Assembly: GCF_009192745.1 (NCBI RefSeq)
Contig: NZ_VTFV01000002.1
Span: 62,001-126,000, forward strand
Origin: Arthrobacter citreus
GTDB taxonomy: Bacteria; Actinomycetota; Actinomycetes; Actinomycetales; Micrococcaceae
DNA: 64,000 bases
Reading direction: 5' to 3'
Positions 43,096 through 58,568 of this stretch are shown here, in pieces. Positions within the stretch are counted from its first letter, which is position 1. Each line of letters opens with the position of its first letter. Under the pieces are notes generated by a model, which was not told where the DNA came from, made no database searches, and saw only the letters and a list, made by a program, of their open reading frames with translations. Both the position numbers and the translations under genes were made by a program.

Positions 43096-44046
<951 letters not shown>

Positions 44047-44065
44047 AAGCAAGTAGAATGAATCC

Positions 44066-44632
44066 ATGAACCCTGGTGAGGAACGTGCACACGTGATCGA
44101 AGTGGCCGACCGGCTCTTCTACGAGCGCGGCATCCAAGCAGTCGGCATGGCCGAACTCCGGCGTGAAGTAGACCTGCCGCTGAAGAAGCTCTACTCACTG
44201 TTCCCTTCCAAGCAGGCCATAGTATTCGCAGTGCTGGACCGGCGCCACCGAATCTGGACGGCCGGGCTTCAGGAGCGGATCGACGCCGCCGCGAATCCCC
44301 GGGCCAGGTTGCTGGCCGTCTACGACTACCTCTCGGACTGGTTCGCCGAGGATTCATTCCGCGGCTGCGCCTTCATCAACGCCTTCGGTGAACTGGGCAG
44401 CCAGTCACCGGACATCGCCGAGCGCACCCGGACACACAAAGACTCGTTCCAGCGCGTGCTTGCGGACCTCGTGGCCGCAGCCGGCGGTGAGCCTGCACTG
44501 GCTCCGCAGCTGGCGCTGCTTGCCGAGGGCGCCCAGACGACGGCGGCTATCTCCGGCTCAGCAGAGCCGGCCCGGCAGGCCCGCCAGGCCGCAGAGATCC
44601 TGATCGACGCACAGGTTGCCGGCACGGCCTAG
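44066..44632 (+). CDS. TetR family transcriptional regulator
   Basis: 188 residues. N-terminal helix-turn-helix: VIEVADRLFYERGIQAVGMAE and LKKLYSLFPSKQAIVFAVL. The ligand domain includes FRGCAFINAFGELG, a pattern seen in TetR regulators of the AcrR type. Divergent from the haloperoxidase-like hydrolase across two operator sites; likely represses both its own gene and the hydrolase. Inducer unknown. Confidence 0.93.
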   Translation: MNPGEERAHVIEVADRLFYERGIQAVGMAELRREVDLPLKKLYSLFPSKQAIVFAVLDRRHRIWTAGLQERIDAAANPRARLLAVYDYLSDWFAEDSFRGCAFINAFGELGSQSPDIAERTRTHKDSFQRVLADLVAAAGGEPALAPQLALLAEGAQTTAAISGSAEPARQARQAAEILIDAQVAGTA

Positions 44633-44659
44633 GGCAGGCAATGCCTGGTTTCCAACAGA

Positions 44660-45349
44660 CTAGAGTCCGGTGCCTTCCTCGTTGAACATGGCAAGCCGCA
44701 CGTCCCTGGCAGCAAAGAAGTGGTCCAGGGTGACACCGTAGGCACCATCCAGGTCCCGGGCCGCAATCCTGTCAGTCACGGCAGCCTGGAATTGCCGGGA
44801 CTTCGCCCATCGGCCCGGCGCAGCGACAGCCGGGCGCGCTTCAACGGTCCGGGCCAACTGCAACTTGACCCGATTCAAGGCATCCTCGAGTGCACTGTTG
44901 CGTGCAATCCTCAAAACATGTCCCATAAAGCTGCGGGAGTACTTCACCATCTCTTCGGCAGAGTCAGGATCAACATTGTCGCCATTTGCCAGCGTCGCCC
45001 GGAGCATTTGGAGGTCGCGATCCGTCCGCCGGTCTGCGGCGGTACGCGCCGAAGCCGCTTCCAGATAGGCACGCACCTCGTAGATATCGAGAATCTCCTC
45101 CGGCTCCAGCGCGCGCACCACCAGGCCATTCTCATTCCAGGTAACGAGCGTGTCCTGCTCCAGACGCCCGATGGCCTCTCGAATGGGGGTCCGAGACACA
45201 CCGCACCACTGGGCGAGGGCCGATTCGCTTAGCGGCTGCCCAGGGGCAAACTCACCCGAAATGATGGCATCGCGAATCTTGGTATATGCCGCAATCCGCC
45301 CCTGGGAAGTCGGCATCGCCTTCTGGGACTTGGGTTCTGCTGGAGTCAT
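44660..45349 (-). CDS. GntR family regulator, FCD subfamily
   Basis: 229 residues. Winged-helix domain at residues ~18-80 (YTKIRDAIISGEFAPGQPLSE, VSRTPIREAIGRLEQDTLV) and an all-helical FCD ligand domain (~90-225). FCD regulators commonly bind organic acids and repress catabolic operons. It is downstream of the aldehyde dehydrogenase on the same strand and near the divergent mhp-like operon, so it is the likely regulator of the aromatic block. ATG 45349 has AAAGGCAGG upstream. Confidence 0.92.
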   Translation of the reverse strand: MTPAEPKSQKAMPTSQGRIAAYTKIRDAIISGEFAPGQPLSESALAQWCGVSRTPIREAIGRLEQDTLVTWNENGLVVRALEPEEILDIYEVRAYLEAASARTAADRRTDRDLQMLRATLANGDNVDPDSAEEMVKYSRSFMGHVLRIARNSALEDALNRVKLQLARTVEARPAVAAPGRWAKSRQFQAAVTDRIAARDLDGAYGVTLDHFFAARDVRLAMFNEEGTGL

Positions 45350-45458
45350 TGCCTGCCTTTGGGGACGCACGGAACACACTTACATGCGATCGTACACGAC
45401 GGTGATTTTGGTGCAGGAGCATGCCTGCACGGTGTTCCGCACTGCATTTGCCGGCATC

Positions 45459-46892
45459 TCACGGCATCGTCAGGGTCACGGTTTTTTCCCGGGACATATC
45501 CCGGATCGCATAGGCGGGCCCCTCAGCTCCGCCGAATCCACTCTGCTTATGACCTCCAAACGGCATCAGGTCTGCCCGGCTGCTTGAGGTCTGATTGACG
45601 TACAGATTGCCCACGTCCAGTGCCTCGATAGCCCGGAACGAAGCATCCAGGCTATTGGTAAAGATCCCGGCTGCGAGTCCGAAAGGCGTCGCGTTGGCAT
45701 GTGCAATCGCCCGGTCCAGGGAGGCGTAGGACTGCAGGACTACAGCAGGTCCAAAAAGCTCGGAGGCAACAATTCTGGCATCGTCCGGAACGTCAACCAG
45801 CAGGGTTGGCTCCACTACCGAACCGCGGCGCATCCCACCGTGAACCAGCTGGCCGCCCAGCCGGACAGCTTCCTGGATCCACTCCTCCACCCGGTCCGCT
45901 TCAGAAACAGCGATCAGCGGTCCAACCGTGGTTGCCGGATTCCCCGGATCCCCGGGGACTTCCCTTCCCATCCCGGCAGAAACCAGCCGGATCAGCTCTG
46001 CCTCAACAGTTTCATGGACATACACACGCTGAACTGAGGTACACACCTGCCCCGACTTTCGGAGGGCCCCGGCCACAATGGCGTCGGCTGCGAATTCAAG
46101 GTCGGCATCGTGGCACACAAACGTGGACGAGAGGCTGCCCATCTCCAGTTGCGTGCGCCGCATACCCACAGCCCGATGCAGTTCCCGGCCAACCTGGGTG
46201 CTTCCCGTGAAGGCGTAGTAGCCAATCCCGGGCTCCTCGGCGAGCCACTTCCCCAGCTGGCCGCCCGGCCCGTAGACAAGTCCAATCTTCTCGGGCGGCA
46301 GCCCTGCGTCCAGCAGCACCTGGACGAAGGCATGCGCAGAGAGCGGCGTGAGCGAGGCCGGCTTGAGCAGAACCGAGTTGCCCGCGGCTATCGCCGGACC
46401 CACTTTGTGGGCCACCGTGTTCAATGGTGAATTGAACGGCGTGAGTGCACACACCAAGCCGTACGGTTCACACCTCGTGTAACTGACCCGGCCTGCAGCG
46501 TTCGGAGCACCCGAAATCGGGACCATGTGCCCCACCAGCCTTTTGGCTTCTTCAGCACAGAGCGTGAGTGTCTCCGCAGTCCGGTCCACCTCCTTTGTTG
46601 CATCCGACAAGGCAAAACCAGTATCAGCCTGAACTGCTGCGATCAGCTGCGTGCGGCGCAGCTGCACGATCCCTGCGGCCCGGTGCAGGATCTCCGCCCT
46701 CTGCCGCGGCGGTAAAACCATCCCGTCCTGCGACGCCGCCAGTGCCTCCACCGCCTCATGGACCTGGGCACGTTCCGTCACTGCAACTTCGGCAATGACC
46801 TCCCCGGTGAACTTATCCACGAGGTCGGAGGTGACCCCACCGGAGTTGACCCAGTTCCCAGCAACAAACCCTGCAACAGCTGTTCTTTTCAC
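45459..46892 (-). CDS. NAD(P)-dependent aldehyde dehydrogenase of the aromatic block
   Basis: 477 residues. Non-acylating ALDH: TPFNSPLNTVAHKVGPA, FTGSTQVGREL, general base in QLEMGSLSS and catalytic Cys in SGQVCTSVQRVYVHE. The LE(L/M)GS and SVQRVYVHE pattern is closest to the phosphonoacetaldehyde/succinate-semialdehyde-type group. The start is GTG at 46892 with GAGGCAGG upstream. It is divergent from the meta-cleavage operon and upstream of gntR. Its likely job is to oxidise the aldehyde released by the HpaI-type aldolase (acetaldehyde, if 4-hydroxy-2-oxopentanoate is the intermediate). Confidence 0.9.
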   Translation of the reverse strand: MKRTAVAGFVAGNWVNSGGVTSDLVDKFTGEVIAEVAVTERAQVHEAVEALAASQDGMVLPPRQRAEILHRAAGIVQLRRTQLIAAVQADTGFALSDATKEVDRTAETLTLCAEEAKRLVGHMVPISGAPNAAGRVSYTRCEPYGLVCALTPFNSPLNTVAHKVGPAIAAGNSVLLKPASLTPLSAHAFVQVLLDAGLPPEKIGLVYGPGGQLGKWLAEEPGIGYYAFTGSTQVGRELHRAVGMRRTQLEMGSLSSTFVCHDADLEFAADAIVAGALRKSGQVCTSVQRVYVHETVEAELIRLVSAGMGREVPGDPGNPATTVGPLIAVSEADRVEEWIQEAVRLGGQLVHGGMRRGSVVEPTLLVDVPDDARIVASELFGPAVVLQSYASLDRAIAHANATPFGLAAGIFTNSLDASFRAIEALDVGNLYVNQTSSSRADLMPFGGHKQSGFGGAEGPAYAIRDMSREKTVTLTMP

Positions 46893-46934
46893 GCCTGCCT
46901 CATTTCTGCTTCGGTCCCGCACGCACCTGGGCGG

Positions 46935-46989
46935 ATACTTACACCTACACCTACATCTGCCGCCATGCTACGGTATCCATACGTATACC
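46935..46989. promoter_or_regulatory. Divergent control region with TACA repeats and a dyad
   Basis: The 118-base gap between ALDH and mhpB holds TTACACCTACACCTACAT (46939-46956, TACA every 6 bases) and the dyad GGTATCCATACGTATACC (46972-46989), whose right part also offers a TATACC -10. A related TTACATGCGATCGTACAC lies upstream of gntR (45380-45397). These are candidate GntR sites; assignment is inference. Confidence 0.45.
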
Positions 46990-47010
46990 GATAACAACGA
47001 GGGAGAAAAA

Positions 47011-47892
47011 GTGGCATACAGTTCGATGACCCTGTGCATGTCGCATAGCCCAGGCTTTGCCCGGGACCGCGAAGAGGTTGACGGCCACCAGTTCCGCGCA
47101 GGCGTTTCATCCGCGCGCGGCATTGTCGAAGCGTGGGATCCCACTCTCGTGGTCTTCTTCGGATCGGACCATCGCCGTGCTTTCGGTGAAATCCTGCCCG
47201 CCATCTCGGTGGTTCTGTCCGCCGAGGGCCTGGGGGATTCGGAGTCACCGACGGGCCCCTACGATGTGCCGGCCGAGACCGCCCGCGGACTTGCCGCGCA
47301 CCTCCTCGACGCCGACTTTGACGTCGCGATCACGCGGCATATCGCTCTTGACCATGGTTTCGGCCAAACGACGGCGGACATCCTGGGCGGTCTGGCTGCC
47401 CGGCCGGTCATTCCCATCTTCATCAACTGCGCCACTTTCCCCCTGTCCCGGCCGGGACGTTCCGCTGAGCTTGGACGCGCGGTGGCCGCCTACTTCGCTG
47501 CTACGAACGAGCGTGTCCTGTTCATCGGCTCCGGCGGCATGTCCCACAACCCCCCGACGCTGGCTCTGACCTCGGAAGGACTGAGCGAGGAAGAGCGGCG
47601 CGCCGTCAGCGCCGCTCACCGCGAGGCAGCGAAGGATGACATCCGCCCGGAATGGGACAAGGAGATGCTTGCCCGGCTGGGCGCTGACGACACCAGCTGG
47701 GTGGACGAGGTGACCACTGACCAGCTGCAAGCCGGAGGAGTCGGCGCCCATGAGCTCCGCACCTGGTTTGCCGCCTACGCTGCGGGCAACGAAGGGCTGG
47801 AAACCGTGGCCTATGAACCCGTTCGGGAGTGGCTTACCGGCCTGGGCATCGCCGTCTCACGCCAGGCCGCCGAACTCCGCGTGCCGCGTTAG
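47011..47892 (+). CDS. mhpB: Extradiol ring-cleavage dioxygenase, MhpB family (class III)
   Basis: 293 residues. Cleaves a 2,3-dihydroxyphenylpropionate-like catechol next to the hydroxyls (meta-cleavage) using iron(II). It aligns along its length with E. coli MhpB: LCMSHSPG, FFGSDHRRAF, LDHGFGQ and FIGSGGMSHNPP. With the GTG start at 47011 the catalytic acid/base histidines fall at His115 and His179, the same numbers as in E. coli MhpB, which supports this start. The ribosome site is GGGAG. First gene of a five-gene operon with its ring hydroxylase directly after it. Confidence 0.93.
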   Translation: MAYSSMTLCMSHSPGFARDREEVDGHQFRAGVSSARGIVEAWDPTLVVFFGSDHRRAFGEILPAISVVLSAEGLGDSESPTGPYDVPAETARGLAAHLLDADFDVAITRHIALDHGFGQTTADILGGLAARPVIPIFINCATFPLSRPGRSAELGRAVAAYFAATNERVLFIGSGGMSHNPPTLALTSEGLSEEERRAVSAAHREAAKDDIRPEWDKEMLARLGADDTSWVDEVTTDQLQAGGVGAHELRTWFAAYAAGNEGLETVAYEPVREWLTGLGIAVSRQAAELRVPR

Positions 47893-47907
47893 GTGAAGTT
47901 GCCGAAC

Positions 47908-49410
47908 ATGGATACGAACACCTTCGAATGTGACGTTGCAGTAATCGGACTGGGCCCGGTCGGAGCCATCACAGCAAATCTGCTGGCCCACCAGGGCCTC
48001 CGGGTGGTGGCTTTGGACCGCGAACCGGACGTGATGCAGGTCCCCCGCGGCGTCGGCATTGACGGCGAAATCATGCGGGTCATGCAGACCCTCGGGCTCG
48101 CGGCTTCCCTGGAACCGTTCCTGAAGGTTTTTCGCGGAGCCCAGTACATAGACTCAGCCGGCTCCGTTGTCGCGTCCCGGCCGGCGGCAAGCAGCGTCGG
48201 AAGCCAGGGATGGCCCGACCGGTACAACGTTCACCAGCCGGAATTCGAAGAGGTTCTCCGGACTGCACTTCGGTCGAACCCCCTGATCACCGAACTGGTA
48301 TCAACCGAAGTGGAGAACATCATCCAGTCTCCCGAGGCAGCGCAGGTTCTTGCGCGCAGCACCAAGGACGGCTCCGCCCTGACCGTCACTGCGAAGTATG
48401 TGGTGGGAGCGGACGGCGGCCGCAGTACTGCCCGCAGGATCATAGGCTCAACCTATGAGGACTATGGACTGAACCAGCCCTGGATAGTGGCGGACTTTAA
48501 AGTCTCCGACGCCGCTGACCTGCCCGCAATCAACACGCACTACGCCCATCCGGTGTCCCCGGCGATTTACATCCACGTAGTCCGGGACATTCGCCGCTTC
48601 GAGTTCCGTGCAGCTCCCGGAGAAGATCTGGAGGCTGCGGTTATGCCCGACAGGATCTGGTCAAGGGTCGCTCCCTGGCTCGCGCCGGAGGATGCTGAGC
48701 TCCTGCGGGCAGCGGTTTACACACACCGTTCGCTCGTTGTGGACACCTGGCGCCACGGCAGAGTGCTGCTGGCCGGTGACGCCGCGCACCAGACCCCTCC
48801 CTTCCTGGGCCAAGGCCTGTGCACGGGGGTCCGTGACGCTGCTGCGATAGCCTGGCGTTTGCGCGATGTCCTCCTGCGGGGCGCCCCCGAGGATTTGCTG
48901 GACAGCTACGGCAAGGAGCGTGCGGCACACGCACGCCACTTCATCACCACAGCCACGGAATTGGGCACGAAGCTAACCCAGCCGACCAAAGAGTCCATCG
49001 AACTGCTCAACAGCCGTGTTGGACGGGAGGGCCGCGGAGTGCCTCCGCGCCTCGGTGACGGAATCTACGATGCGGCGTTCGGCGGGGGATACCTGTCTGC
49101 CCAGCCACGCAACGGATCAGGTGTGCTCGTCGACGATCTCATTGGGTACGAATTTGGCCTCATCATCACTCCCGAGGCCTTTTCCGAACTCAGCGAGGAG
49201 GTCCGTTCCAGCCTGCCCGCACTGCGCGTGATCCCGCTGGTGGCAGACGCTGCACTTCACGCTTGGCTGCATGAACAGCAGGCACAGGCCGTGCTGGTCC
49301 GGCCCGACCGGTACGTTTACGGTTCCTACCCGGAAGTTGATGACCTGCTCGCCGGCCTGGACTCCTTGGCCGCCGCACGCGGCCAAAAGGAAAGGGCTGT
49401 GTCTGGATGA
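47908..49410 (+). CDS. mhpA: FAD-dependent aromatic hydroxylase, MhpA-like
   Basis: 500 residues. Group A flavoprotein monooxygenase: dinucleotide motif VIGLGPVGAITANLLA, the DG motif VVGADGGRSTARR, and GRVLLAGDAAHQTPPFLGQG contacting FAD. The family member MhpA adds a hydroxyl ortho to the phenol of 3-hydroxyphenylpropionate, giving the MhpB substrate, and the gene lies right after mhpB. ATG 47908 is preferred with AGGTGA upstream; a GTG at 47893, directly after the mhpB stop, is the alternative. The substrate may be a related phenol. Overlaps the aldolase start as ATGA. Confidence 0.88.
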   Translation: MDTNTFECDVAVIGLGPVGAITANLLAHQGLRVVALDREPDVMQVPRGVGIDGEIMRVMQTLGLAASLEPFLKVFRGAQYIDSAGSVVASRPAASSVGSQGWPDRYNVHQPEFEEVLRTALRSNPLITELVSTEVENIIQSPEAAQVLARSTKDGSALTVTAKYVVGADGGRSTARRIIGSTYEDYGLNQPWIVADFKVSDAADLPAINTHYAHPVSPAIYIHVVRDIRRFEFRAAPGEDLEAAVMPDRIWSRVAPWLAPEDAELLRAAVYTHRSLVVDTWRHGRVLLAGDAAHQTPPFLGQGLCTGVRDAAAIAWRLRDVLLRGAPEDLLDSYGKERAAHARHFITTATELGTKLTQPTKESIELLNSRVGREGRGVPPRLGDGIYDAAFGGGYLSAQPRNGSGVLVDDLIGYEFGLIITPEAFSELSEEVRSSLPALRVIPLVADAALHAWLHEQQAQAVLVRPDRYVYGSYPEVDDLLAGLDSLAAARGQKERAVSG

Positions 49411-50189
49411 AACGCAACCACTTCCTCGACAACCTGGCTGCGGGCCGTCCGCAGCTGGGTTTGTGGAACAACCTCAGAGGCATGGCTGCCACTGAAATAG
49501 CGGCCAGCGCCGGATTTGACTGGCTCTTACTTGACCAGGAGCATTCTCCGCGGTCGCTCGACGAGCTGGCCATATCCCTGAGCGTCATTGAGGGCTGCGG
49601 CACTTCAGCAGTCGTTCGTGTCGGCAGCCATGATCCGCACGAGATCGGAAGGGTCCTCGATCTGGGGGCAAGGACCGTTCTGGTGCCGATGGTTGAAACT
49701 GCTGAACAGGCGGATCGCATTGCTGCGGCCTGCGACTTCGCTCCCCGGGGCATTCGCGGGGTATCTGCACAGACCCGCGGCGGAAGCTGGGGGAATGACG
49801 CTGGCTATCTTCAGGAAGCCCGCGGAAACATCTGCCTCATACTCCAGATCGAATCTCTCGCCGGGCTTCAGAACGCCAGCGGGATCATGGCTGCCGGGGG
49901 CGTCGATGCAGTGTTCCTGGGAACAGCCGATCTGGCTGCCAGCATGGGGCACCTCGGAGAGCCGAAGCACCCGGAGGTACAGGCCGCTGCCCGTCACATC
50001 GTTGAACTGGCCGCGTCCCTGAAGATGCCGCTGGGCACCCTCACTAAGAACCCGGCTGATTGTTCCACAGCCCTCTCAAGCGGCTACGCCTTCGCTGCGG
50101 TGGGCACCGACACGGCCATGCTCGCGGCTACCTACCGCGAAACCCTTTCACACTTCATCAGCACGGAAAAAGGAAACCGAAATGAGTAA
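49407..50189 (+). CDS. HpcH/HpaI family class II aldolase
   Basis: 260 residues. Metal-dependent cleavage of a 4-hydroxy-2-oxo acid to pyruvate plus an aldehyde. All active-site residues known from E. coli HpaI are visible: Asp43 and His46 (LLLDQEH), Arg71 (VVRVG), Glu149 (LQIESLAG) and Asp175 (LGTADLA). The canonical mhp pathway uses the unrelated MhpE aldolase with the MhpF acylating dehydrogenase, neither of which is in the window. This gene is coupled to mhpA (ATGA) and overlaps mhpC by 8 bases, so it is an integral part of the operon. Confidence 0.9.
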   Translation: MKRNHFLDNLAAGRPQLGLWNNLRGMAATEIAASAGFDWLLLDQEHSPRSLDELAISLSVIEGCGTSAVVRVGSHDPHEIGRVLDLGARTVLVPMVETAEQADRIAAACDFAPRGIRGVSAQTRGGSWGNDAGYLQEARGNICLILQIESLAGLQNASGIMAAGGVDAVFLGTADLAASMGHLGEPKHPEVQAAARHIVELAASLKMPLGTLTKNPADCSTALSSGYAFAAVGTDTAMLAATYRETLSHFISTEKGNRNE

Positions 50190-51057
50190 CTCCGCTCCTG
50201 AGTACGCGAGCATTTGGACAGCACTGCGCGAAGTCGCTTTTACGCAGCAGTACATCGACGCTGAGGGGGTTCGGACCCGCGTGGTGACCGCCGGCGATCC
50301 TTCGAAGCCCGCTTTGGTCATGCTGCATGGAACCGGGGGCCACTGGGAAGCCTTCTCCCGAATCCTGGGGCCGCTGTCCGAACACTTCCACTGTGTCGCC
50401 TATGACATGGTTGGCAATGGCTTTTCCGACAAGCCCGACCGCCCGTACGACACCTTTGCCTACGTTGCCCACCTGAAGGCTGTCCTGGCGGCGCTGGGAA
50501 TTGAAAGGACCAGCGTCATGGGTTCTTCTCTGGGCTCCTGGGTCGCTGCCCGCTACGCCCTCGAAAACCCCGAGCTCACCGATCGAGTCATCCTGGTCTC
50601 GCCGGCGGGCCTCATAGCCAGCGCTGACAACATGGCACGAATCATCCGGGAACGTACCCGTGCAGTCAACGAGGCGAGCTGGGAGTCCATCAGCGCTGTC
50701 TTCAGCCACCTCATCGCAACGGATGAAAACCGCATCCCGGATCTGATCGCGCTGCGCCTTGCCATCTACCAGCGCCAGGACACCCGGGACACAGTGCACC
50801 GCATGCTGACCCTTCAGCAGGAGGGCGTGCGCCAGGAGAATCTCCTGACCGAAGACCAGTGGCGCTCAATCCAGGCACCCACCCTTGTGGTCCTCTCGGG
50901 CAAGGACCACCGGGAATACGAGACAACCGCCCGCCGCGTCCTGGAGATGCTCCCGGATGGCCGGGAACTGGCGATGCCCCACGTCGCCCACTGGGCCGCG
51001 TTCGAGGACCCCGGAACATTCGTGGACGCGGCGATCCCATTCCTTAAGGGGGAATAG
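50182..51057 (+). CDS. mhpC: Meta-cleavage product C-C hydrolase, MhpC-like
   Basis: 291 residues, alpha/beta hydrolase. Nucleophile Ser116 (GSSLGSWVAARYAL), acid Asp in VLSGKDHREYETTARR and His in MPHVAHWAAFEDP; the oxyanion motif is LHGTGGHWEAF. Cleaves the carbon-carbon bond of the ring-opened product, releasing 2-hydroxypenta-2,4-dienoate and an acid (succinate if the substrate is phenylpropionate-derived). Role assigned from fold plus position between dioxygenase, hydroxylase and hydratase genes. The start overlaps the aldolase end. Confidence 0.87.
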   Translation: MSNSAPEYASIWTALREVAFTQQYIDAEGVRTRVVTAGDPSKPALVMLHGTGGHWEAFSRILGPLSEHFHCVAYDMVGNGFSDKPDRPYDTFAYVAHLKAVLAALGIERTSVMGSSLGSWVAARYALENPELTDRVILVSPAGLIASADNMARIIRERTRAVNEASWESISAVFSHLIATDENRIPDLIALRLAIYQRQDTRDTVHRMLTLQQEGVRQENLLTEDQWRSIQAPTLVVLSGKDHREYETTARRVLEMLPDGRELAMPHVAHWAAFEDPGTFVDAAIPFLKGE

Positions 51058-51861
51058 ATGCTCACCTCGGAGCAGATCCTCGAAACTGCCCGGCGCCTGG
51101 AACACGCTGCTCAGACCCGGACCCCGATGACTCAGTTGTCGGTCCAGTTTCCGGATATGACAATTGATGATGCCTACGCCGTTCAGACTGCATGGCGCCA
51201 GTTGCAGATTTCACGCGGCCGGAAGCTTGCCGGCCGGAAAATCGGACTGACCTCCCGCACCATGCAGAAAGCCCAGGAAGTCGATGAACCGGACCGGGGC
51301 TTTTTTCTCGACGACATGATGTTCGGGGATGCTGAACTGATTCCACGGGACCGGTTCATCAAACCCCGCATTGAGGTGGAGATCGTCTTTGTCCTGAAAC
51401 GGGATTTGACCGGCCCGGATCTGAGTGTGACCGACGTGCTGGACGCCACTGCGTGGGTGCAGCCCGGCCTGGAGATACTCGACGCCCGTCTCGAGATGCG
51501 CGATCCAGCCAGTGGCCAGGCACGCAAGATCGTCGATGCCATCGGTGACAATGCAGCAAACGGCGGGATGATTCTGGGCGGCCGGCCCATGCGCCCGGAT
51601 CAGGTGGATCTTCGGTGGGAATCAGCCATGTTGTATGTCAACGGAACCGTTGAGGAATCCGGCGTTGCGGGTGCGGTCATGAACCATCCCGCAGCAAGCG
51701 TTGCGTGGCTGGCAAACAGCCTCGCGCCTTATGGAGAGAGCCTTGAGGCAGGGATTCCCATTCTCTCCGGTTCTTTCACACGACCTGTTTTCGCCAACGC
51801 CGGCGACACGTTCCATGCCGAGTTCAGCACCATGGGCTCAGTTACGTCCCGGTTTATCTGA
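51058..51861 (+). CDS. mhpD: 2-Keto-4-pentenoate hydratase, MhpD-like
   Basis: 267 residues, fumarylacetoacetase-fold hydratase. Visible are the GRKIGLTSRTMQ motif, DRGFFLDDMMF, the metal-site PRIEVEIVFVL and the conserved SVAWLANSLAPYGESLEAGIPILSG region. Adds water to 2-hydroxypenta-2,4-dienoate, giving 4-hydroxy-2-oxopentanoate, the aldolase substrate. ATG immediately follows the mhpC stop without a gap. Last gene of the operon, followed by a strong hairpin. The HpaH hydratases of the homoprotocatechuate pathway are related; a longer dienoate cannot be excluded. Confidence 0.92.
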   Translation: MLTSEQILETARRLEHAAQTRTPMTQLSVQFPDMTIDDAYAVQTAWRQLQISRGRKLAGRKIGLTSRTMQKAQEVDEPDRGFFLDDMMFGDAELIPRDRFIKPRIEVEIVFVLKRDLTGPDLSVTDVLDATAWVQPGLEILDARLEMRDPASGQARKIVDAIGDNAANGGMILGGRPMRPDQVDLRWESAMLYVNGTVEESGVAGAVMNHPAASVAWLANSLAPYGESLEAGIPILSGSFTRPVFANAGDTFHAEFSTMGSVTSRFI

Positions 51862-51878
51862 GTATCCCGAAGCTTGTT

Positions 51879-51915
51879 GGCTGCGCTTCCGGCAGGTATT
51901 GCCGGAAGCGCAGCC
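51879..51915. terminator. Perfect 16-bp hairpin between convergent genes
   Basis: GGCTGCGCTTCCGGCA (51879-51894) pairs exactly with 51900-51915 around a 5-base loop, between the hydratase and MmgE/PrpD stops. A T-tract is lacking. Confidence 0.82.
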
Positions 51916-51955
51916 CGGCTGCTGGTATTCATCGGACCGCTGACGGCGGGACAGC

Positions 51956-53326
51956 TTAGTTTCGGAAGAGCCCGTCAACGGATGGCAGGTGCACAAGTTG
52001 CCTGAGCCGGGCCAAGAGCTCACAGGCTTTATCCACATGCAGGACCGATCCCGCCGTTGACATGAACTTTTCATCCACCTCCGCTGGGGTCAGTGGACGC
52101 TCCGCAGATCCCCGGGCGTTTTCGACCCGCACCCGACGAAGGCCCCCTCCCCGCAGGAAGAGGACCAGGTCGGCGTAGCGCCCATCCATGGTCGCGCTCA
52201 GGTCTCCCCGGGCAGTGTCTTCAGTGATGTCTATTGTGTCCATGAGCATACGAACAGCGGGCTCCCGGACTGCGGCGTCAGTGAAATGTTCCATCCGCGG
52301 CGTACCGCGCACCAGCGCTGTGGCGACGGCATAGGGAAGGCTGAACTTGGCCTCCATCCCGCTGGCCGGTTCGTCATACAAGAGGGCCGTGCGGGTCCCC
52401 CAGGGAACCAGCAGCTCGATCCGGTCGATGACCGTCCCCTTGGGAAGGTCCGCGGCCGCGTCCAGAGCCGCGTCGATGGCCAGATGAGATCCCCTGCAGC
52501 ACGGATAGAGCTTGATACCCAAATCGTCGGCTGCTCCCGCCGCCACCTGTTGCAGTGCCTCCGCTGAGAGCAGCTGCGATTGGCTGCCCCGCTCACCAAA
52601 AAGGGCTGTCCCGCCATAGCGGCCGTCCAGGGCCACGGGTGATGCGGTAACTCCGGCCTCTGAGAGCATGGACGCCTCCACGCCCGCCCGTGCCGCCAGC
52701 CCAGCGTGGATGGGTTTCATCAGGGTGCCAAAGTTCGCCCTCACCCCCTGGGTCATTGAAATGGAAATGCTGATGGCATTGGCGACGGCGGCTGCCGGCT
52801 GTCCGCGCACCACCGCACTGCCCACTGCGGCACCCACCACCCCGCACGTCGACGTGGAGTGCCACCCCCTCGAATAGTGTTCAGGTCCATACAGGGCGGC
52901 GACCGCGGACATTGCACCCAGCCCGGCCAGATATCCGCGGACAATGGAGGCCCCGGAGGCGCCGGTGGGGGCCGCAGCGAACACGGCAGGGAGCACAACC
53001 GTGCTCGGGTGCCCATGGATCTGGTAGTGCGTGTCGTCGAAATCGAGCAGGTGACCGGCTGTCGCGTTGAGAAATGCCGCACCAGGCGCAGTGCTAGCTG
53101 CTGTTCCGTCCCAGAAAGGAACTCCGCTTCTCAGCAGGGGCACCAAGGCTGACACAGGGTCCAGGTCCGGCTGCGCCAGACCGAGGACCGTCACTCCAAC
53201 GGTGTCAACGATTGAGTCAAGGACCTTCTCCATCCGCGGCGGAGCGACGCCCAGCCCTGCGCCTACCGCCCACTTCCCCAGCTGGCCGGCCAATGTGGGA
53301 CCAGCTTCCCTATCGAATGTGTTCAT
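51956..53326 (-). CDS. MmgE/PrpD family protein
   Basis: 456 residues. The fold of 2-methylcitrate dehydratase and cis-aconitate decarboxylase. Characteristic motifs: LLDFDDTHYQIHGHPSTVVLPA, GWHSTSTCGVVGAA, and LYPCCRGSHLAIDAAL. Many members dehydrate, decarboxylate or isomerise small di- and tricarboxylates, and no 2-methylcitrate genes are nearby, so the substrate is open. ATG 53326 is favoured; ATG 53332 and upstream starts are possible because no clear ribosome site is visible. Divergent from the ABC importer and convergent with the aromatic operon. Confidence 0.86.
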   Translation of the reverse strand: MNTFDREAGPTLAGQLGKWAVGAGLGVAPPRMEKVLDSIVDTVGVTVLGLAQPDLDPVSALVPLLRSGVPFWDGTAASTAPGAAFLNATAGHLLDFDDTHYQIHGHPSTVVLPAVFAAAPTGASGASIVRGYLAGLGAMSAVAALYGPEHYSRGWHSTSTCGVVGAAVGSAVVRGQPAAAVANAISISISMTQGVRANFGTLMKPIHAGLAARAGVEASMLSEAGVTASPVALDGRYGGTALFGERGSQSQLLSAEALQQVAAGAADDLGIKLYPCCRGSHLAIDAALDAAADLPKGTVIDRIELLVPWGTRTALLYDEPASGMEAKFSLPYAVATALVRGTPRMEHFTDAAVREPAVRMLMDTIDITEDTARGDLSATMDGRYADLVLFLRGGGLRRVRVENARGSAERPLTPAEVDEKFMSTAGSVLHVDKACELLARLRQLVHLPSVDGLFRN

Positions 53327-53422
53327 CTGCATACAGTACGGGACAGTTGAATACATTTGGCGCGTGCGCGGCCAGGTCACATTACGCACATTTGGGATCG
53401 CCCGGCGGCAGCGTCTAGTTTT

Positions 53423-53446
53423 TGTGAGATACGTCGCATAGTATCT
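53423..53446 (+). promoter_or_regulatory. CRP-like site abutting a TAGTAT -10
   Basis: TGTGA-GATACG-TCGCA (53423-53438) has one mismatch to TGTGA-N6-TCACA and is followed directly by TAGTAT (53439-53444). The same bases also form AGATAC-N8-GTATCT (53427-53446). Predicted transcription start near 53451 for the ABC operon. The design resembles the promoter at 8189-8212. Confidence 0.45.
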
Positions 53447-53460
53447 GTTGAAATGCAGAT

Positions 53461-53476
53461 GCATTCAGCTGAATGC
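53461..53476. promoter_or_regulatory. Perfect 16-bp palindrome in the importer leader
   Basis: GCATTCAGCTGAATGC is an exact palindrome located 26 bases before the ABC ATPase start and 134 before the MmgE/PrpD start. It is a likely operator downstream of the promoter. Regulator unknown. Confidence 0.55.
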
Positions 53477-53502
53477 CGCTACACATGGAAGAGAACAGAG
53501 CT

Positions 53503-54330
53503 ATGACAACAAGCACCGAATTGCAGGGGAACCCACCTGCCGAAGGGCGCACGGAAGGTGGTGGACACCTACCCAAGATCGCCGTCAAAAACGTCAGCAA
53601 AGTGTACGGACGCAAAAGCACCGTCACGGCGCTGCAGGATGTGGATCTCGAGATTCAGGAAGGTCAGTTCGTTTGCCTCGTTGGCCCCTCCGGCTGCGGC
53701 AAGTCAACCCTTCTGCGCATGATGGCCAGTTTGCACCATCCCAGCTCGGGGACCGTAGAACTGAACACCTCCCGTGCAACCCACGGAGTGGCGATGGTGT
53801 TCCAGAACTACAGCATCTACCCCTGGAAGACCGTTGAACAGAACATCGGGCTTGGTCTCCAGGTAAAGGGACTGAGCGCGGCGGAGCGGGCAAGCCGCGT
53901 AGGTCCCCTGATGGAACAGATGGGACTCACGGATTTCGCCGACGCCCTGCCCTCAGCCCTCTCCGGCGGAATGGCTCAGCGCGTGTCCATTGCGCGCGCC
54001 CTCGCCGTCCGGCCTGACGTCCTGCTGATGGACGAGCCCTTCGCGGCCCTGGACGCACAGATGCGCCGGGTCCTGCAGGACGAGCTGCTGGCAATCTGGC
54101 AGCAGGACAGGCGCACGGTCGTGTTCGTTACGCACAGCCTGGAGGAAGCCATTCTCCTCGGAGACCGGGTGGTCGTTATGTCCTCGCGTCCCGGAAAGAT
54201 CATCGGCGACTATCACGTGCCCTTTGAACGCCCCAGGCGCCCCGAGATCCGGGGAACTGCCGAATTCGCCGAACTTGAACAGCAAATCTGGTCCCAGATG
54301 CGTATTGAAGTGGATCGAGCCAACTCATGA
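53503..54330 (+). CDS. ABC importer ATPase (SsuB/TauB type)
   Basis: 275 residues. Walker A is GPSGCGKST, the Q-loop is VFQNYSIYPWKTVEQNI, the signature LSGGMAQRVSIARAL, Walker B VLLMDEPFAALD, and the switch THSLEEAILLGDRVVVM. The PWKTV and LDAQMR features are typical of nitrate/sulfonate/taurine importers. ATG 53503 has GGAAGAG upstream. The permease start overlaps its stop (ATGA). The substrate cannot be told from the ATPase. Confidence 0.93.
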   Translation: MTTSTELQGNPPAEGRTEGGGHLPKIAVKNVSKVYGRKSTVTALQDVDLEIQEGQFVCLVGPSGCGKSTLLRMMASLHHPSSGTVELNTSRATHGVAMVFQNYSIYPWKTVEQNIGLGLQVKGLSAAERASRVGPLMEQMGLTDFADALPSALSGGMAQRVSIARALAVRPDVLLMDEPFAALDAQMRRVLQDELLAIWQQDRRTVVFVTHSLEEAILLGDRVVVMSSRPGKIIGDYHVPFERPRRPEIRGTAEFAELEQQIWSQMRIEVDRANS

Positions 54331-55178
54331 GTGAAACAGCAACCCGAAAAGTAGTCATCGCCCCCCGTATGTCGGACAAGGACCCGGCGCGGTACGCCCG
54401 GAGCCAGCGGCTGCGCTCACGGATCCTTGGCATCGGCACCCCGGTCATCCTGCTCTTGGCTTGGCAGATCGCCGCAAGTGTGGGAGCAGTTGACGCCCGG
54501 TTCTTCCCGGCTCCGACGACCATCTTTGCAGAAGGCACCGAGCTGGTCTCCAACGGCCAATTGGCGACTGACCTATGGGCAACCCTGCGGAGTCTTTTGA
54601 TCGGCTACGGACTCGGTTTTGTGGCTGGCCTGGCTACCGGCTCCATCCTCGGCCTGTCGCAGACCGCCCGTGCGGCGCTCGAACCCATGCTTTCGGCGAT
54701 CTACACCATCCCGAAACTCGCGATCCTGCCGCTCCTCCTCCTCATCTTTGGCCTGGGCGAGCTTCCGAAGATCCTCCTCATCGCGCTGGGTGTGTTCTTC
54801 GTGATTTGGGTGACAGTCCTGGAAGCGCTGGAAGACATCCAGCCCACCTACCTGGAAGCAGCCCACATTTTCGAAATCCGGGGATGGCAGCGCTTCCGCC
54901 ATGTCCTGATTCCGGCAATCCTCCCCTCACTCTTTACCGGAATCCGCCTGGCACTGGCCAACGCCGTCCTCATTGCCGTGGCCACGGAATTCGTCAACGG
55001 TGACTCCGGCATTGGCTATCGCATCTGGCACAGCTGGTCCCTCTTCCAGGCAAGCCAAATGTACGTAGGCATAGTCGTGGTCGCTTTCATGGGCTTCCTT
55101 CTGACGTACTTCGTCAAATGGCTCAGCAGCAAGCTGGTGCCCTGGGCGCCCCGTGAGAACAAGCGTTCAGCCACCTAG
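54327..55178 (+). CDS. ABC importer permease (SsuC/TauC type)
   Basis: 283 residues with 6 hydrophobic segments. The EAA loop EAAHIFEIRGWQRFRHVLIPAILPSLFTGIR is the coupling motif for the ATPase, and GLATGSILGLS and TIPKLAILPLLLLIFGLGE are typical of the BPD_transp_1 permeases for sulfonate, nitrate and similar anions. ATG overlaps the ATPase stop. One permease gene implies a homodimer. Confidence 0.93.
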   Translation: MSETATRKVVIAPRMSDKDPARYARSQRLRSRILGIGTPVILLLAWQIAASVGAVDARFFPAPTTIFAEGTELVSNGQLATDLWATLRSLLIGYGLGFVAGLATGSILGLSQTARAALEPMLSAIYTIPKLAILPLLLLIFGLGELPKILLIALGVFFVIWVTVLEALEDIQPTYLEAAHIFEIRGWQRFRHVLIPAILPSLFTGIRLALANAVLIAVATEFVNGDSGIGYRIWHSWSLFQASQMYVGIVVVAFMGFLLTYFVKWLSSKLVPWAPRENKRSAT

Positions 55179-55258
55179 AAACGACGTGCGGGCAGGGCCC
55201 TTCAGTGTTGAAGAGTCCTGCCCGCATCCAACCCACATCGAGAGTAAAGGTAAGAATC

Positions 55259-56290
55259 ATGTCGACGAAAATGACGCGAAGGTCTTTTGCTGCGCTGGCC
55301 GCGGCCGCCGGACTTGTGCTGTCCGGCTGCGCTTCCTCGTCTGAAGCGGCCGGCGGAGCTTCGGAGGAACTCACCGAAGTGACAGTCGCCGTATCCTCGA
55401 AAATTGCGTACTTCGTTCCCTATCTCATGGAAGAACACTGGGGGGAGTTCGCAGCGGAGGGCATCGATCTCAAGGTCGAGATCGCGCCGGCCCAGGATGC
55501 CCTGGTCATGCTGGCCACTGGGAAGCTGGACGCCATGGTGACCGGCCCCAGCGCCAACCTCCTCAATGCCGTGGCGGACGGCACGAACGTCAAGATCGTC
55601 GCTCCGGGCGGAATCGAACCGGCTGACTCGATCAACGGGTGGTATGTCAGCAAGGCTGCCCTGGGAGACCAGGAGTTCGACATTTCCATGCTCAAGGGAA
55701 AGACGCTTGCCTCTTCATCCGGCGTCGCCGGCCCGCCTCTCCTGAGCCTGGCCCGGACGCTGGAAACCGAAGGACTGACACTGGCGGATGTCGACATTAA
55801 GTCAATGAAGCAGGCCGATACCATCATCGCGATCGAAAACGGGGCTGTCTTCGGCGGTACAGCGTCGCAGCCGAATACAGCGATCATCGAAGAAAAGGAC
55901 TCCGGGGTATTCTTCGCCAGAAGTGCGCCCGAGGACTATCCTTCCGTAAACGTTTGGTTCGGTTCGACACTCCTGGACGATGCGCCGGAAGTTGGTGAGC
56001 GCTTCATCCAGGCCCTGCACAATACCTACATGAACCGCCTGCAAGGGGATTGGCTGCACGATCCGCAGAACATTGAGCTGATCTCCGAAGTGCTCGAAAC
56101 AGACGTGTCCATCTTGGAGGATATTCCTTCCACGGTGTACCCCGAAGAATTCACCTTTCCGGACGGTTTCATCGAATCCTACGAGGAAGCCTTCCGCCAG
56201 ATTCCGGGAGTCCTGACCTACGGTGAGGATGACTCGCTTGGCGACTCTGTCATCGACACCAGGTTCATGGACAAGATCAACTCAAAATAA
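55259..56290 (+). CDS. ABC importer substrate-binding lipoprotein (NMT1/SsuA-like)
   Basis: 343 residues. The signal sequence has a twin-arginine-like start (TRRSFAALAA) and a lipobox with Cys24 (LSGC), so it is probably a lipoprotein, perhaps exported by Tat. The mature part has the NMT1/SsuA pattern (EEHWGEFAAEGIDLKVEI, ATGKLDAMVTGPSANLLNAV). Receptors of this family bind sulfonates, pyrimidine precursors, phthalates and other organic anions. Its position beside the aromatic operon makes an aromatic or small organic acid an attractive ligand, which is inference. ATG 55259 has AAAGG upstream. Confidence 0.9.
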   Translation: MSTKMTRRSFAALAAAAGLVLSGCASSSEAAGGASEELTEVTVAVSSKIAYFVPYLMEEHWGEFAAEGIDLKVEIAPAQDALVMLATGKLDAMVTGPSANLLNAVADGTNVKIVAPGGIEPADSINGWYVSKAALGDQEFDISMLKGKTLASSSGVAGPPLLSLARTLETEGLTLADVDIKSMKQADTIIAIENGAVFGGTASQPNTAIIEEKDSGVFFARSAPEDYPSVNVWFGSTLLDDAPEVGERFIQALHNTYMNRLQGDWLHDPQNIELISEVLETDVSILEDIPSTVYPEEFTFPDGFIESYEEAFRQIPGVLTYGEDDSLGDSVIDTRFMDKINSK

Positions 56291-56310
56291 ACCCAAAACA
56301 GGTGACTGAA

Positions 56311-56349
56311 TGGCAGGCATGGGGGCTTCTGCAGCCGCCGTGCCTGCCA
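56311..56349. terminator. Hairpin after the ABC importer
   Basis: TGGCAGGCA (56311-56319) pairs with TGCCTGCCA (56341-56349) around a 21-base loop containing further GC pairing. It lies between convergent genes. Confidence 0.55.
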
Positions 56350-56354
56350 TGCCC

Positions 56355-56885
56355 CTATTGATCCTCCGGCGGCACACCCAGCTTCACCAGGACGTTCTCG
56401 TGGATCATTTCAGCGTTCCCGGATAACTCTGCTCCATCCATGTAGCCGTCAACCACCAGGACGGCCATACCCGCGCGTCCGTCCAGCGTGGTCCCCGGGG
56501 AGGTGCCGGAGACAACGTTTCCCTCCCTGAGCGGGCCCTGGCGGCAGAAAGCGGAGTAGCTTTCACCGGACCCGGTGCGCACCACCACCAGGCAGTAGCC
56601 GCCCCGGCCGCGGGAGACGTAGTAACTGCCCGTACCGCTGGTGGTCAGGAACCGCACTTCGTCCCGGCCGGTATCCAATTCCACCCAAGCGGGCAGCTCA
56701 TCCTGCTCTTTCGGTTCGGCTTCGAACACCGCGAAGGGCGGATCGGGAAGCGGGTCTGCCCGGGAGGAGGAAATCGTGGAGAGCACGAAGACACCGGCGG
56801 CCGCCAGGACGGCGGCGCCTGTCCAGAGGAGGCCGGCAGGCACGGCATCCCGCCGTCCGGTTCGGCGTTTGGCGCTTCGACCCAT
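56355..56885 (-). CDS. Membrane-anchored extracellular protein, unknown
   Basis: 176 residues. A basic start (MGRSAKRRTGRRDAV) and one hydrophobic segment (~17-37, LLWTGAAVLAAAGVFVLST) are followed by an acidic, probably extracellular domain with a cysteine pair (GGYCLVVV and SAFCRQG) that could form a disulfide. ATG 56885 has GGGGAA upstream; the longer open frame upstream overlaps argO. No family recognised. Confidence 0.75.
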   Translation of the reverse strand: MGRSAKRRTGRRDAVPAGLLWTGAAVLAAAGVFVLSTISSSRADPLPDPPFAVFEAEPKEQDELPAWVELDTGRDEVRFLTTSGTGSYYVSRGRGGYCLVVVRTGSGESYSAFCRQGPLREGNVVSGTSPGTTLDGRAGMAVLVVDGYMDGAELSGNAEMIHENVLVKLGVPPEDQ

Positions 56886-57615: not shown

Positions 57616-57686
57616 GAAACCAAGTTATGACCGCACCGTTGAGAAGACTAGCTAATTTTTCTGGACTGTCTTTAGTATTTCTTAAT

Positions 57687-58568
57687 ATGGAGTTCAATGC
57701 GGATCAGCTGCGCGCACTTGCCGCCGTCCTCGACCATGGCAGCTTTGATGCCGCTGCTGCGGCCCTGCACCTGACCACGTCTGCCGTCAGCCAGCGGGTC
57801 AAGGCTTTGGAGACACGGACCGGGTGCGTGCTGCTGAAGCGCACGCGGCCCATCGCAGCCACTGAACCCGGGGCTGTCCTGCTGCGGCTGGCCCGGCAGA
57901 TCAACGCACTGGAGAATGACGCCGTCGAGCGCCTGGGCTTGGACAGCCAGCCCGGACGCACGGCAGTCCAGTTGGTCATCAACGCCGATTCGCTCTCTAC
58001 CTGGGTACTTCCAGCACTGGCGCAGGTAGAGGGAATTGGCTTTGAGTTCACCTTGGAGGACCAGGACTATTCGGCCGAAGGCCTAAGGAACGGAACTGCC
58101 ATGGCTGCAGTAACCTCCAGCCCGGAACCCGTGCAGGGCTGCTCTGTCACCGGCCTGGGGACCATGCGCTACCGGCCAGCCGCCAGCCCGGCTTTCCGCA
58201 GCAGGTGGTTCGACCGCGGTTTTGATGCCGTCCAGGCGGCCTCCGCCCCCATGGTGGTCTTCAACCGGCGGGATGCGCTTCAAGCCCGCTTCCTGGAAGC
58301 GGCTTTTGGGCCGGGACTCCAGCCGCCCCGGCACTACGTTCCTGCATCCTGGGATTTCCTGCAGGCCGTACGCCTTGGGTTCGGCTGGGGAATGCTCCCG
58401 GACCTGCAGTCCGAGGAACTGCTCGCAGAGGGTTCAATCGTGCTTTTGGATCCTGACGCACACCTGGACGTTCCGCTGTACTGGCAGCAGTGGCGGGTAG
58501 ACCTGCCCGCGCTCTCGCGGGTGGCCGGAGCGCTGTCCGCGGCTGCCGGAAAGGGACTTCTCTACTGA
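57687..58568 (+). CDS. argP: LysR-type activator, ArgP/LysG group
   Basis: 293 residues. N-terminal LysR helix-turn-helix: NADQLRALAAVLDHGSFDAAA and LTTSAVSQRVKALE, followed by an effector domain with the ArgP-like INADSLSTWVLPAL. Divergent from argO, its likely target. A TAGTAT -10 at 57673-57678 places the transcript start within a few bases of the ATG and no ribosome site is visible, so a leaderless message is likely. Its stop overlaps the stop region of the convergent flavin reductase by 7 bases. Confidence 0.94.
   Translation: MEFNADQLRALAAVLDHGSFDAAAAALHLTTSAVSQRVKALETRTGCVLLKRTRPIAATEPGAVLLRLARQINALENDAVERLGLDSQPGRTAVQLVINADSLSTWVLPALAQVEGIGFEFTLEDQDYSAEGLRNGTAMAAVTSSPEPVQGCSVTGLGTMRYRPAASPAFRSRWFDRGFDAVQAASAPMVVFNRRDALQARFLEAAFGPGLQPPRHYVPASWDFLQAVRLGFGWGMLPDLQSEELLAEGSIVLLDPDAHLDVPLYWQQWRVDLPALSRVAGALSAAAGKGLLY

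Follow-up and report, generated by a model that had tools for sequence, protein, structure and literature searches.

What does a meta-cleavage operon yield when its first genes resemble those of the mhp pathway and genes of the MhpE and MhpF types are missing? This question is raised by a locus of Arthrobacter citreus (assembly GCF_009192745.1, 3.55 Mb) in a 64,000-nucleotide stretch of contig NZ_VTFV01000002.1 (G000:C3, positions 62001 to 126000), here called the window, from whose first letter coordinates are counted unless another locus is named. The original prediction, made from the sequence alone, described 44660 to 51861 as an Mhp-like operon in which an HpaI-type aldolase would cut 4-hydroxy-2-oxopentanoate and a plain aldehyde dehydrogenase (ALDH) would oxidize the free acetaldehyde to acetate. 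The set analyzed here comprises eleven genes reaching 56290 and lies in an inserted segment. We favor, at slightly below even confidence, the view that it is a horizontally acquired hybrid island for an aromatic carboxylic acid, with an Mhp-like top half and a Thn/Hpa-like bottom half. The end products first proposed are probably a misreading.

Gene content, insertion site, and relatives

The genes for a GntR/FCD-type regulator (gntR, 44660 to 45379; PF00392 and PF07729) and a non-acylating ALDH (45459 to 46922) are on the minus strand, and the ALDH gene lies divergently beside gntR, as had been described. The plus-strand genes mhpB (47011 to 47892, GTG start), mhpA (47893 to 49410), hpaI (49407 to 50189), an alpha/beta-fold C-C hydrolase gene (50182 to 51057), and hpaH (51058 to 51861) have the operon layout first reported, in which mhpB abuts mhpA, the mhpA/hpaI and hpaI/hydrolase pairs overlap by 4 and 8 bp, respectively, and the hydrolase gene abuts hpaH. 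However, the unit does not end at 51861, as had been thought. A minus-strand MmgE/PrpD-family gene (prpD, 51956 to 53464, true start probably internal; PF03972 and PF19305) and three plus-strand ABC transporter genes also belong to it, and all four are present in each of the three clusters known. The transporter genes encode an SsuB/TauB-like ATPase (53473 to 54330; PF00005), an SsuC-like permease (54327 to 55178; PF00528), and, in the ssuA-like gene, an NMT1/THI5-type substrate-binding protein (55205 to 56290; PF09084).

The 11.7-kb block (44617 to 56369, approximate ends) is interpreted with high confidence as an insertion acquired horizontally and recently, as indicated by the site in related genomes and by its composition. 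The nearest matches to the flanking genes (43096 to 43971 and 57627 to 58568), which span 13.7 kb in the window, are separated by 1.3 to 2.0 kb in seven genomes among the 28 others searched in the genus; in the remaining 21 they are either widely separated or on separate contigs. The DNA at the site was read in three of these seven genomes. The G232 sequence is homologous to the window up to 44614 and again from 56370, with about 90 bp between, so that the missing stretch ends at most 80 bp from the last gene and about 45 bp from the first gene of the set. For G032 and G058, the corresponding limits are 44616 and 57014, and the intervening DNA is about 680 and 90 bp long, respectively. The G+C content is 61.9 to 62.7% in the three bins from 44001 to 56000 and 65.4% in the window. 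No exact repeat of at least 9 bp joins the island ends, and no tRNA gene is nearby.

A contig scan with MhpB found two loci, one in Microterricola pindariensis (L050, 60% identity) and a distant one (L051, 29%) that was not used further. L050 holds the ALDH, the three ABC transporter genes, PrpD, GntR, MhpB, MhpA, HpaI, the hydrolase, and HpaH, together with a TcuA-type flavoprotein. Among 349 genomes of one family, which like the window genome belongs to the order Micrococcales, 12 had an MhpB match at an E value of ≤1e-40, and G1416, G1487, and, more weakly, G1494 were far above the rest. G1416 is probably the same genome as L050; G1487 carries the whole gene set, and the MhpB gene of G1494 has a different neighborhood. 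Amino acid identities of the window proteins to those of Microterricola and G1487, respectively, are 65 and 69% for HpaH, 62 and 64% for MhpB, 56 and 57% for the hydrolase, 54 and 56% for the ALDH, 54 and 53% for MhpA, 50 and 43% for HpaI, and 48 and 46% for PrpD. The comparison of gene order in relatives, which the original prediction had proposed, thus gave the same set in two genomes and its absence from this site in G032, G058, and G232. From their place inside the insertion, the PrpD and transporter genes came with the ring-cleavage genes, and they are linked to them again in Microterricola and G1487.

In the family of the window genome, 26 of 295 genomes, including that of the window, had an MhpB-like match (E ≤ 1e-20), and only the window genome exceeded 40% identity. 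It alone passed the NF009909 cut-off among 396 genomes of the order and 396 of the phylum, samples that overlap and in part lacked the other two carriers. In another family (186 genomes), there were eight MhpB matches, all of ≤158.4 bits, and viral contigs held no further cluster members. On an Agrobacterium vitis plasmid, PrpD is encoded next to an MhpA-like gene, but this was rejected as the same system because the PrpD is 23% identical, and a locus in G813 was set aside as a different cluster with related parts (MhpB, 42%; PrpD, 30%). In the latter locus (L109, G813:C10, 1318 to 13900), an MhpB-like gene is near PrpD-family and SsuB/SsuC-like genes and two genes that by eye are Rieske-oxygenase-like. 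No description of a cluster of this make-up was recognized in a literature search judged on abstracts.

Enzymes of the upper and lower halves

The top half of the pathway is assigned as Mhp-like with moderate confidence. The MhpB-like protein, a LigB-type extradiol dioxygenase, scores 296.2 bits with model NF009909 (cut-off, 286), and alignment bore out the claim that its His115 and His179 match those of E. coli MhpB. The MhpA-like FAD aromatic hydroxylase (PF01494) scores 453 bits with NF004829 (cut-off, 390). The genome search for mhpE and mhpF suggested by the original prediction found neither type in the window genome: TIGR03217 gave two matches, the best at 49.9 bits (cut-off, 286), and TIGR03215 gave none. 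In their place stand a class II HpaI-family aldolase and a non-acylating ALDH, as had been recognized. These features are in line with a route in which a hydroxyphenylpropionate-like substrate would be converted via 2-hydroxypenta-2,4-dienoate and 4-hydroxy-2-oxopentanoate to pyruvate and free acetaldehyde, and the ALDH would oxidize the latter to acetate. In the available text of a study of E. coli HpaI, this enzyme condenses acetaldehyde and pyruvate to 4-hydroxy-2-oxopentanoate, with a preference for a C5 aldehyde over shorter aldehydes (PMC8560999). An HpaI-type aldolase, annotated bphF, is also encoded after bphC, an alpha/beta hydrolase gene, and hpaH in Rhodococcus WAY2, with an ALDH annotated as succinic semialdehyde dehydrogenase (SSADH) nearby. 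Free acetaldehyde is a possible product, but the route as a whole is doubtful, because the hydratase is of the HpaH type, the hydrolase is outside the MhpC subfamily, the ALDH has two arginines suited to an anionic tail, and PrpD is left unexplained. The same enzymes and the altered loop of the aldolase leave the first proposal of 4-hydroxy-2-oxopentanoate and acetaldehyde unsupported as stated.

The gene first labeled mhpD encodes an HpaH-type hydratase. The protein scores 372.3 bits with the HpaH model TIGR02312 (cut-off, 351.5) and 180.6 with the MhpD model NF008461 (cut-off, 350). Against solved structures it scores 313.5 bits with HpcG/HpaH (2eb4) and 152.8 bits with MhpD (1sv6), and it is 54 to 55% identical to E. 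coli HpaH and 35% identical to MhpD. An MhpD identity was rejected on all of these grounds, and the hydratases of all three clusters pass the HpaH equivalog cut-off. The score was rejected as proof of a C7 diacid substrate, since the hydratases of the Rhodococcus WAY2 bphC cluster (437.9) and Sphingobium TomTYG64 (451.8) score higher with the same model. The HpaH/HpaI pair alone likewise leaves the substrate unfixed, because the WAY2 bphC cluster carries such a pair. On the TomTYG64 plasmid (L078), no more than about 10 kb separates MhpB and hydrolase genes from hpcG, an HpaI-type aldolase gene, and gabD, and a bphC-type dioxygenase gene is also present.

The label mhpC did not hold either. 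The hydrolase (PF00561; expected triad Ser116/Asp242/His270) shares 21% identity with E. coli MhpC and belongs to another subfamily, with identities of 53% to a hydrolase of Rhodococcus plasmid pDK3 and 58% to one of a Streptomyces plasmid. Each of the latter is encoded directly upstream of hpaH-hpaI, in a cluster that also holds genes for an acyl-CoA dehydrogenase, an acetyl-CoA acetyltransferase, and an adenylate-forming enzyme. On the Rhodococcus plasmid pDK3 (L052/L112) and on plasmid pLP4 (L053/L113), a gene for a short MhpB-like dioxygenase, 44 to 45% identical to that of the window, is located about 70 to 75 kb from hydrolase-hpaH-hpaI. Both plasmids also carry ring-hydroxylating dioxygenase and CoA-dependent genes, a content that suggests one larger shared aromatic route.

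The aldolase has all five residues previously listed from HpaI (Asp43, His46, Arg71, Glu149, and Asp175) and scores 242.9 bits with the HpaI model TIGR02311 (cut-off, 368.8) and 224.3 with GarL. In Acinetobacter HpaI, as given in the available text, the backbone NH group of Ala122 or Ala123, contributed by the neighboring subunit, binds the carboxyl tail of succinic semialdehyde (PMC8560999). By our own numbering step, these residues fall in the loop RGVGSALARAS of E. coli HpaI. At the corresponding place, the window aldolase has RGVSAQTRGGS, that of Microterricola has RGVSSQTRAGN, and that of G1487 has RGVSSQTRAGD. The tail pocket is therefore unlike that of HpaI, since the loop is shorter and has QTR for ALAR. 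An HpaI search of the genus gave 35 matches, 20 of them with loci, including that of the window; RGVGSALAR or RGVGSSLAR was found in all 19 other HpaI-family loci read, and the other 15 matches, among them three further copies in the window genome, were left unread. A short tail loop also occurs in E. coli GarL. Full assignment as HpaI was rejected because of the missed equivalog cut-off and the different loop. Given this loop, the aldehyde may differ from both acetaldehyde and succinic semialdehyde.

The non-acylating ALDH (PF00171) has Cys294 and Glu260. All three clusters retain its Arg114 and Arg449, which in the alignment match two arginines of ALDH21 (5mz5), counted by us as chain positions 139 and 475. 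We take ALDH21 to be the moss succinic semialdehyde dehydrogenase in which the pocket residues Arg121 and Arg457 hold the carboxylate, for which our search gave no confirmation. Arg114 and Arg449 also align with arginines in 5j6b, 5kf0, and 5jry, which are ALDH chains without a named substrate. Both arginines are absent from five of six compared ALDHs, namely, E. coli GabD and AldA, a Streptomyces cluster ALDH, and two SSADH-annotated cluster ALDHs; the sixth, E. coli HpaE, has the first arginine and another arginine one column before the second. The substrate of HpaE is itself a carboxylated semialdehyde. The window ALDH scores 267.1 bits with the HpaE model (cut-off, 638.35). The available text on an Acinetobacter HpaE counterpart states that this enzyme also takes succinic semialdehyde (PMC12718150). 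As judged from these alignments, the two arginines suggest an aldehyde with an anionic tail without proving succinic semialdehyde.

Proposed route and known systems

In the hybrid route that we favor, the ABC transporter would import an aromatic acid, the MhpA-like flavoprotein would hydroxylate its ring to a catechol, and MhpB would open the catechol ring next to the side chain. From the ring-fission product, the hydrolase would release a side-chain acid and leave a 2-hydroxy-2,4-dienoate or, with a fused-ring side chain, would yield one linear diacid, as in tetralin degradation. The HpaH-type hydratase would add water to the dienoate, and the HpaI-family aldolase would release pyruvate and an aldehyde, most likely a carboxylated one, with succinic semialdehyde as the obvious but not the only candidate. 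The ALDH would oxidize this aldehyde to a dicarboxylic acid, PrpD may act on the substrate or the released acid, and GntR would control the gene set. The chance that the aldehyde is carboxylated is considered to be about even.

Several findings weigh against this proposal. The aldolases of all three clusters miss the HpaI cut-off of 368.8 (242.9, 284.7, and 255.4 bits), and the tail loop is one residue shorter than that of HpaI, with QTR for ALAR. The best model for the ALDH is lactaldehyde dehydrogenase (366.8 bits; cut-off, 650), and no equivalog cut-off is reached. The arginines are not needed for succinic semialdehyde, because GabD and the two SSADH-annotated ALDHs do without both, and the HpaH model does not settle the substrate, given the WAY2 bphC-cluster score. 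Compared with G032 and G058, the missing stretch runs past the last gene to 57014, about 640 bp further than in the comparison with G232.

Lower routes in which a C-C hydrolase is followed by an HpaI-type aldolase and a plain ALDH are known chemistry, as in tetralin degradation, the only tested precedent found, which yields a semialdehyde with a carboxylate. In that pathway, according to the available text, ThnD is followed by ThnE and ThnF, which each resemble homoprotocatechuate enzymes, and by ThnG, a non-acylating ALDH acting on pimelic semialdehyde (PMC6563040). The portions available of three other papers (PMC8552027, PMC6710988, and PMC3937715) describe BphI- or DmpG-type aldolases or add nothing on ThnE and ThnF. 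At the level of families, the only level compared, the thn systems of Sphingopyxis granuli TFA and Rhodococcus TFB share with the island a C-C hydrolase, an HpaH-like protein, an HpaI-like protein, and a non-acylating ALDH. They differ in having an upper ring-hydroxylating dioxygenase, where the island has an FAD hydroxylase, as well as beta-oxidation genes and a BphD-like ThnD, and the text available describes no PrpD or NMT1 transporter for thn (PMC6563040). As a special case of the hybrid route, the substrate could carry an alicyclic ring fused to a phenol, so that hydrolysis would give one linear dicarboxylic acid; the hydrolase, HpaH-like, HpaI-like, and ALDH steps would be of the kinds found in Thn (PMC6563040). 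This case is unlikely, as the island proteins include no ring-hydroxylating dioxygenase or beta-oxidation enzymes.

The E. coli mhp system has an FAD hydroxylase (30% identity) and a LigB-type extradiol dioxygenase (33%) of the same families, whereas the island has an HpaH-type hydratase instead of MhpD, no MhpE or MhpF, a hydrolase of 21% identity, and GntR in place of MhpR. With E. coli hpa, the island shares an HpaH-type hydratase (54 to 55%) and an HpaI-family aldolase (39 to 43%) in one operon; unlike hpa, it has a C-C hydrolase, and its aldolase falls below the HpaI cut-off. Among the island proteins scanned, to which this search was confined within the genome, none was assigned as HpaB, HpaD, HpaE, HpaF, or HpaG. 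A second special case would be a hydrolytic homoprotocatechuate route, in which MhpB would cleave 3,4-dihydroxyphenylacetate, the hydrolase would free formate and leave 2-hydroxyhepta-2,4-dienedioate, and HpaH, HpaI, and the ALDH would produce pyruvate and succinate. The HpaH-HpaI pair would then act on its known substrate, and HpaE, HpaF, and HpaG, whose models all remain below cut-off, would not be needed. This route is nevertheless very unlikely, because PrpD would be unexplained, the aldolase loop is not HpaI-like, and, in the text available, such aldehydes are not taken by the tetralin hydrolase ThnD (PMC6563040).

The hydrolase-HpaH-HpaI triplet itself recurs on pDK3 and pLP4, in NBC_00564, and in WAY2 (Rhodococcus and Streptomyces). 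The pDK3 and NBC_00564 hydrolases belong to the window's subfamily and the WAY2 hydrolase is different (21%); that of pLP4 was not aligned. These clusters differ from the island in their ring-hydroxylating dioxygenase genes and, except for WAY2, in their CoA-dependent genes. By description only, in the text available, hcdABC for 7-hydroxycoumarin in Pseudomonas mandelii 7HK4 resembles the island in combining a flavin hydroxylase, an extradiol dioxygenase, and a hydrolase in one operon (PMC6222606); that text names no hydratase or aldolase.

PrpD, tricarballylate, and candidate regulatory sites

The nearest solved structures to the PrpD-family protein are IDS epimerase (2hp0) and Bacillus subtilis IRG1 (7bra). 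The substrates of IDS epimerase and of IRG1-type proteins are built on a substituted succinate backbone. The TcuA in the Microterricola cluster passes its equivalog cut-off (549.6 bits; cut-off, 369) and is absent from the other two clusters, whose genomes carry copies elsewhere. The copy of the window genome (68% identity) is on another contig (G000:C11, about 49027 to 50487), and G1487 has two (64 and 41%). These findings are consistent with a hydroxybenzylsuccinate-like aromatic dicarboxylate as the substrate, from which the hydrolase would free tricarballylate in place of succinate, TcuA would form cis-aconitate, and PrpD would act on this C6 tricarboxylate. If this holds, tricarballylate metabolism would have a direct link to an aromatic ring. 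This reading is a long shot. The presence of TcuA in all three cluster genomes is weak evidence, since 7 of 29 genomes of the genus, including the window genome, carry TcuA; among the six others, five have no MhpB match and the sixth was outside that MhpB search. The window copy may serve free tricarballylate, because it is near genes that, from their translations, resemble TctA/TctB tripartite tricarboxylate transporter genes. Hydrolysis would also leave a plain dienoate, and the ALDH arginines would be unexplained.

Upstream of mhpB, on the plus strand, the window (46965 to 47010) contains ATGCTACGGTAT at 46965 and the imperfect palindrome CGGTATCCATACGTATACCG at 46971. The 12-bp ATGCTACGGTAT is common to all three clusters (L050, 3060 to 3250; L107, 15550 to 15730), and some of its bases may simply form a -10 region. 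The two relatives have GTATAC-centered palindromes between ssuB and the ALDH gene. Both the ATGCTACGGTAT stretch and these palindromes are candidate GntR sites.

The locus represents a compact transferable aromatic-acid island that would combine two pathway halves with a PrpD-family enzyme and its own importer, found in three genera of two families. Judged by its first genes alone, it could be taken for a hydroxyphenylpropionate operon with acetyl-CoA as the end product, a reading not supported by the hydratase, the aldolase, and the ALDH. Knowledge of the substrate would give PrpD-family chemistry a place in aromatic catabolism and would provide an aldolase with an altered aldehyde pocket.

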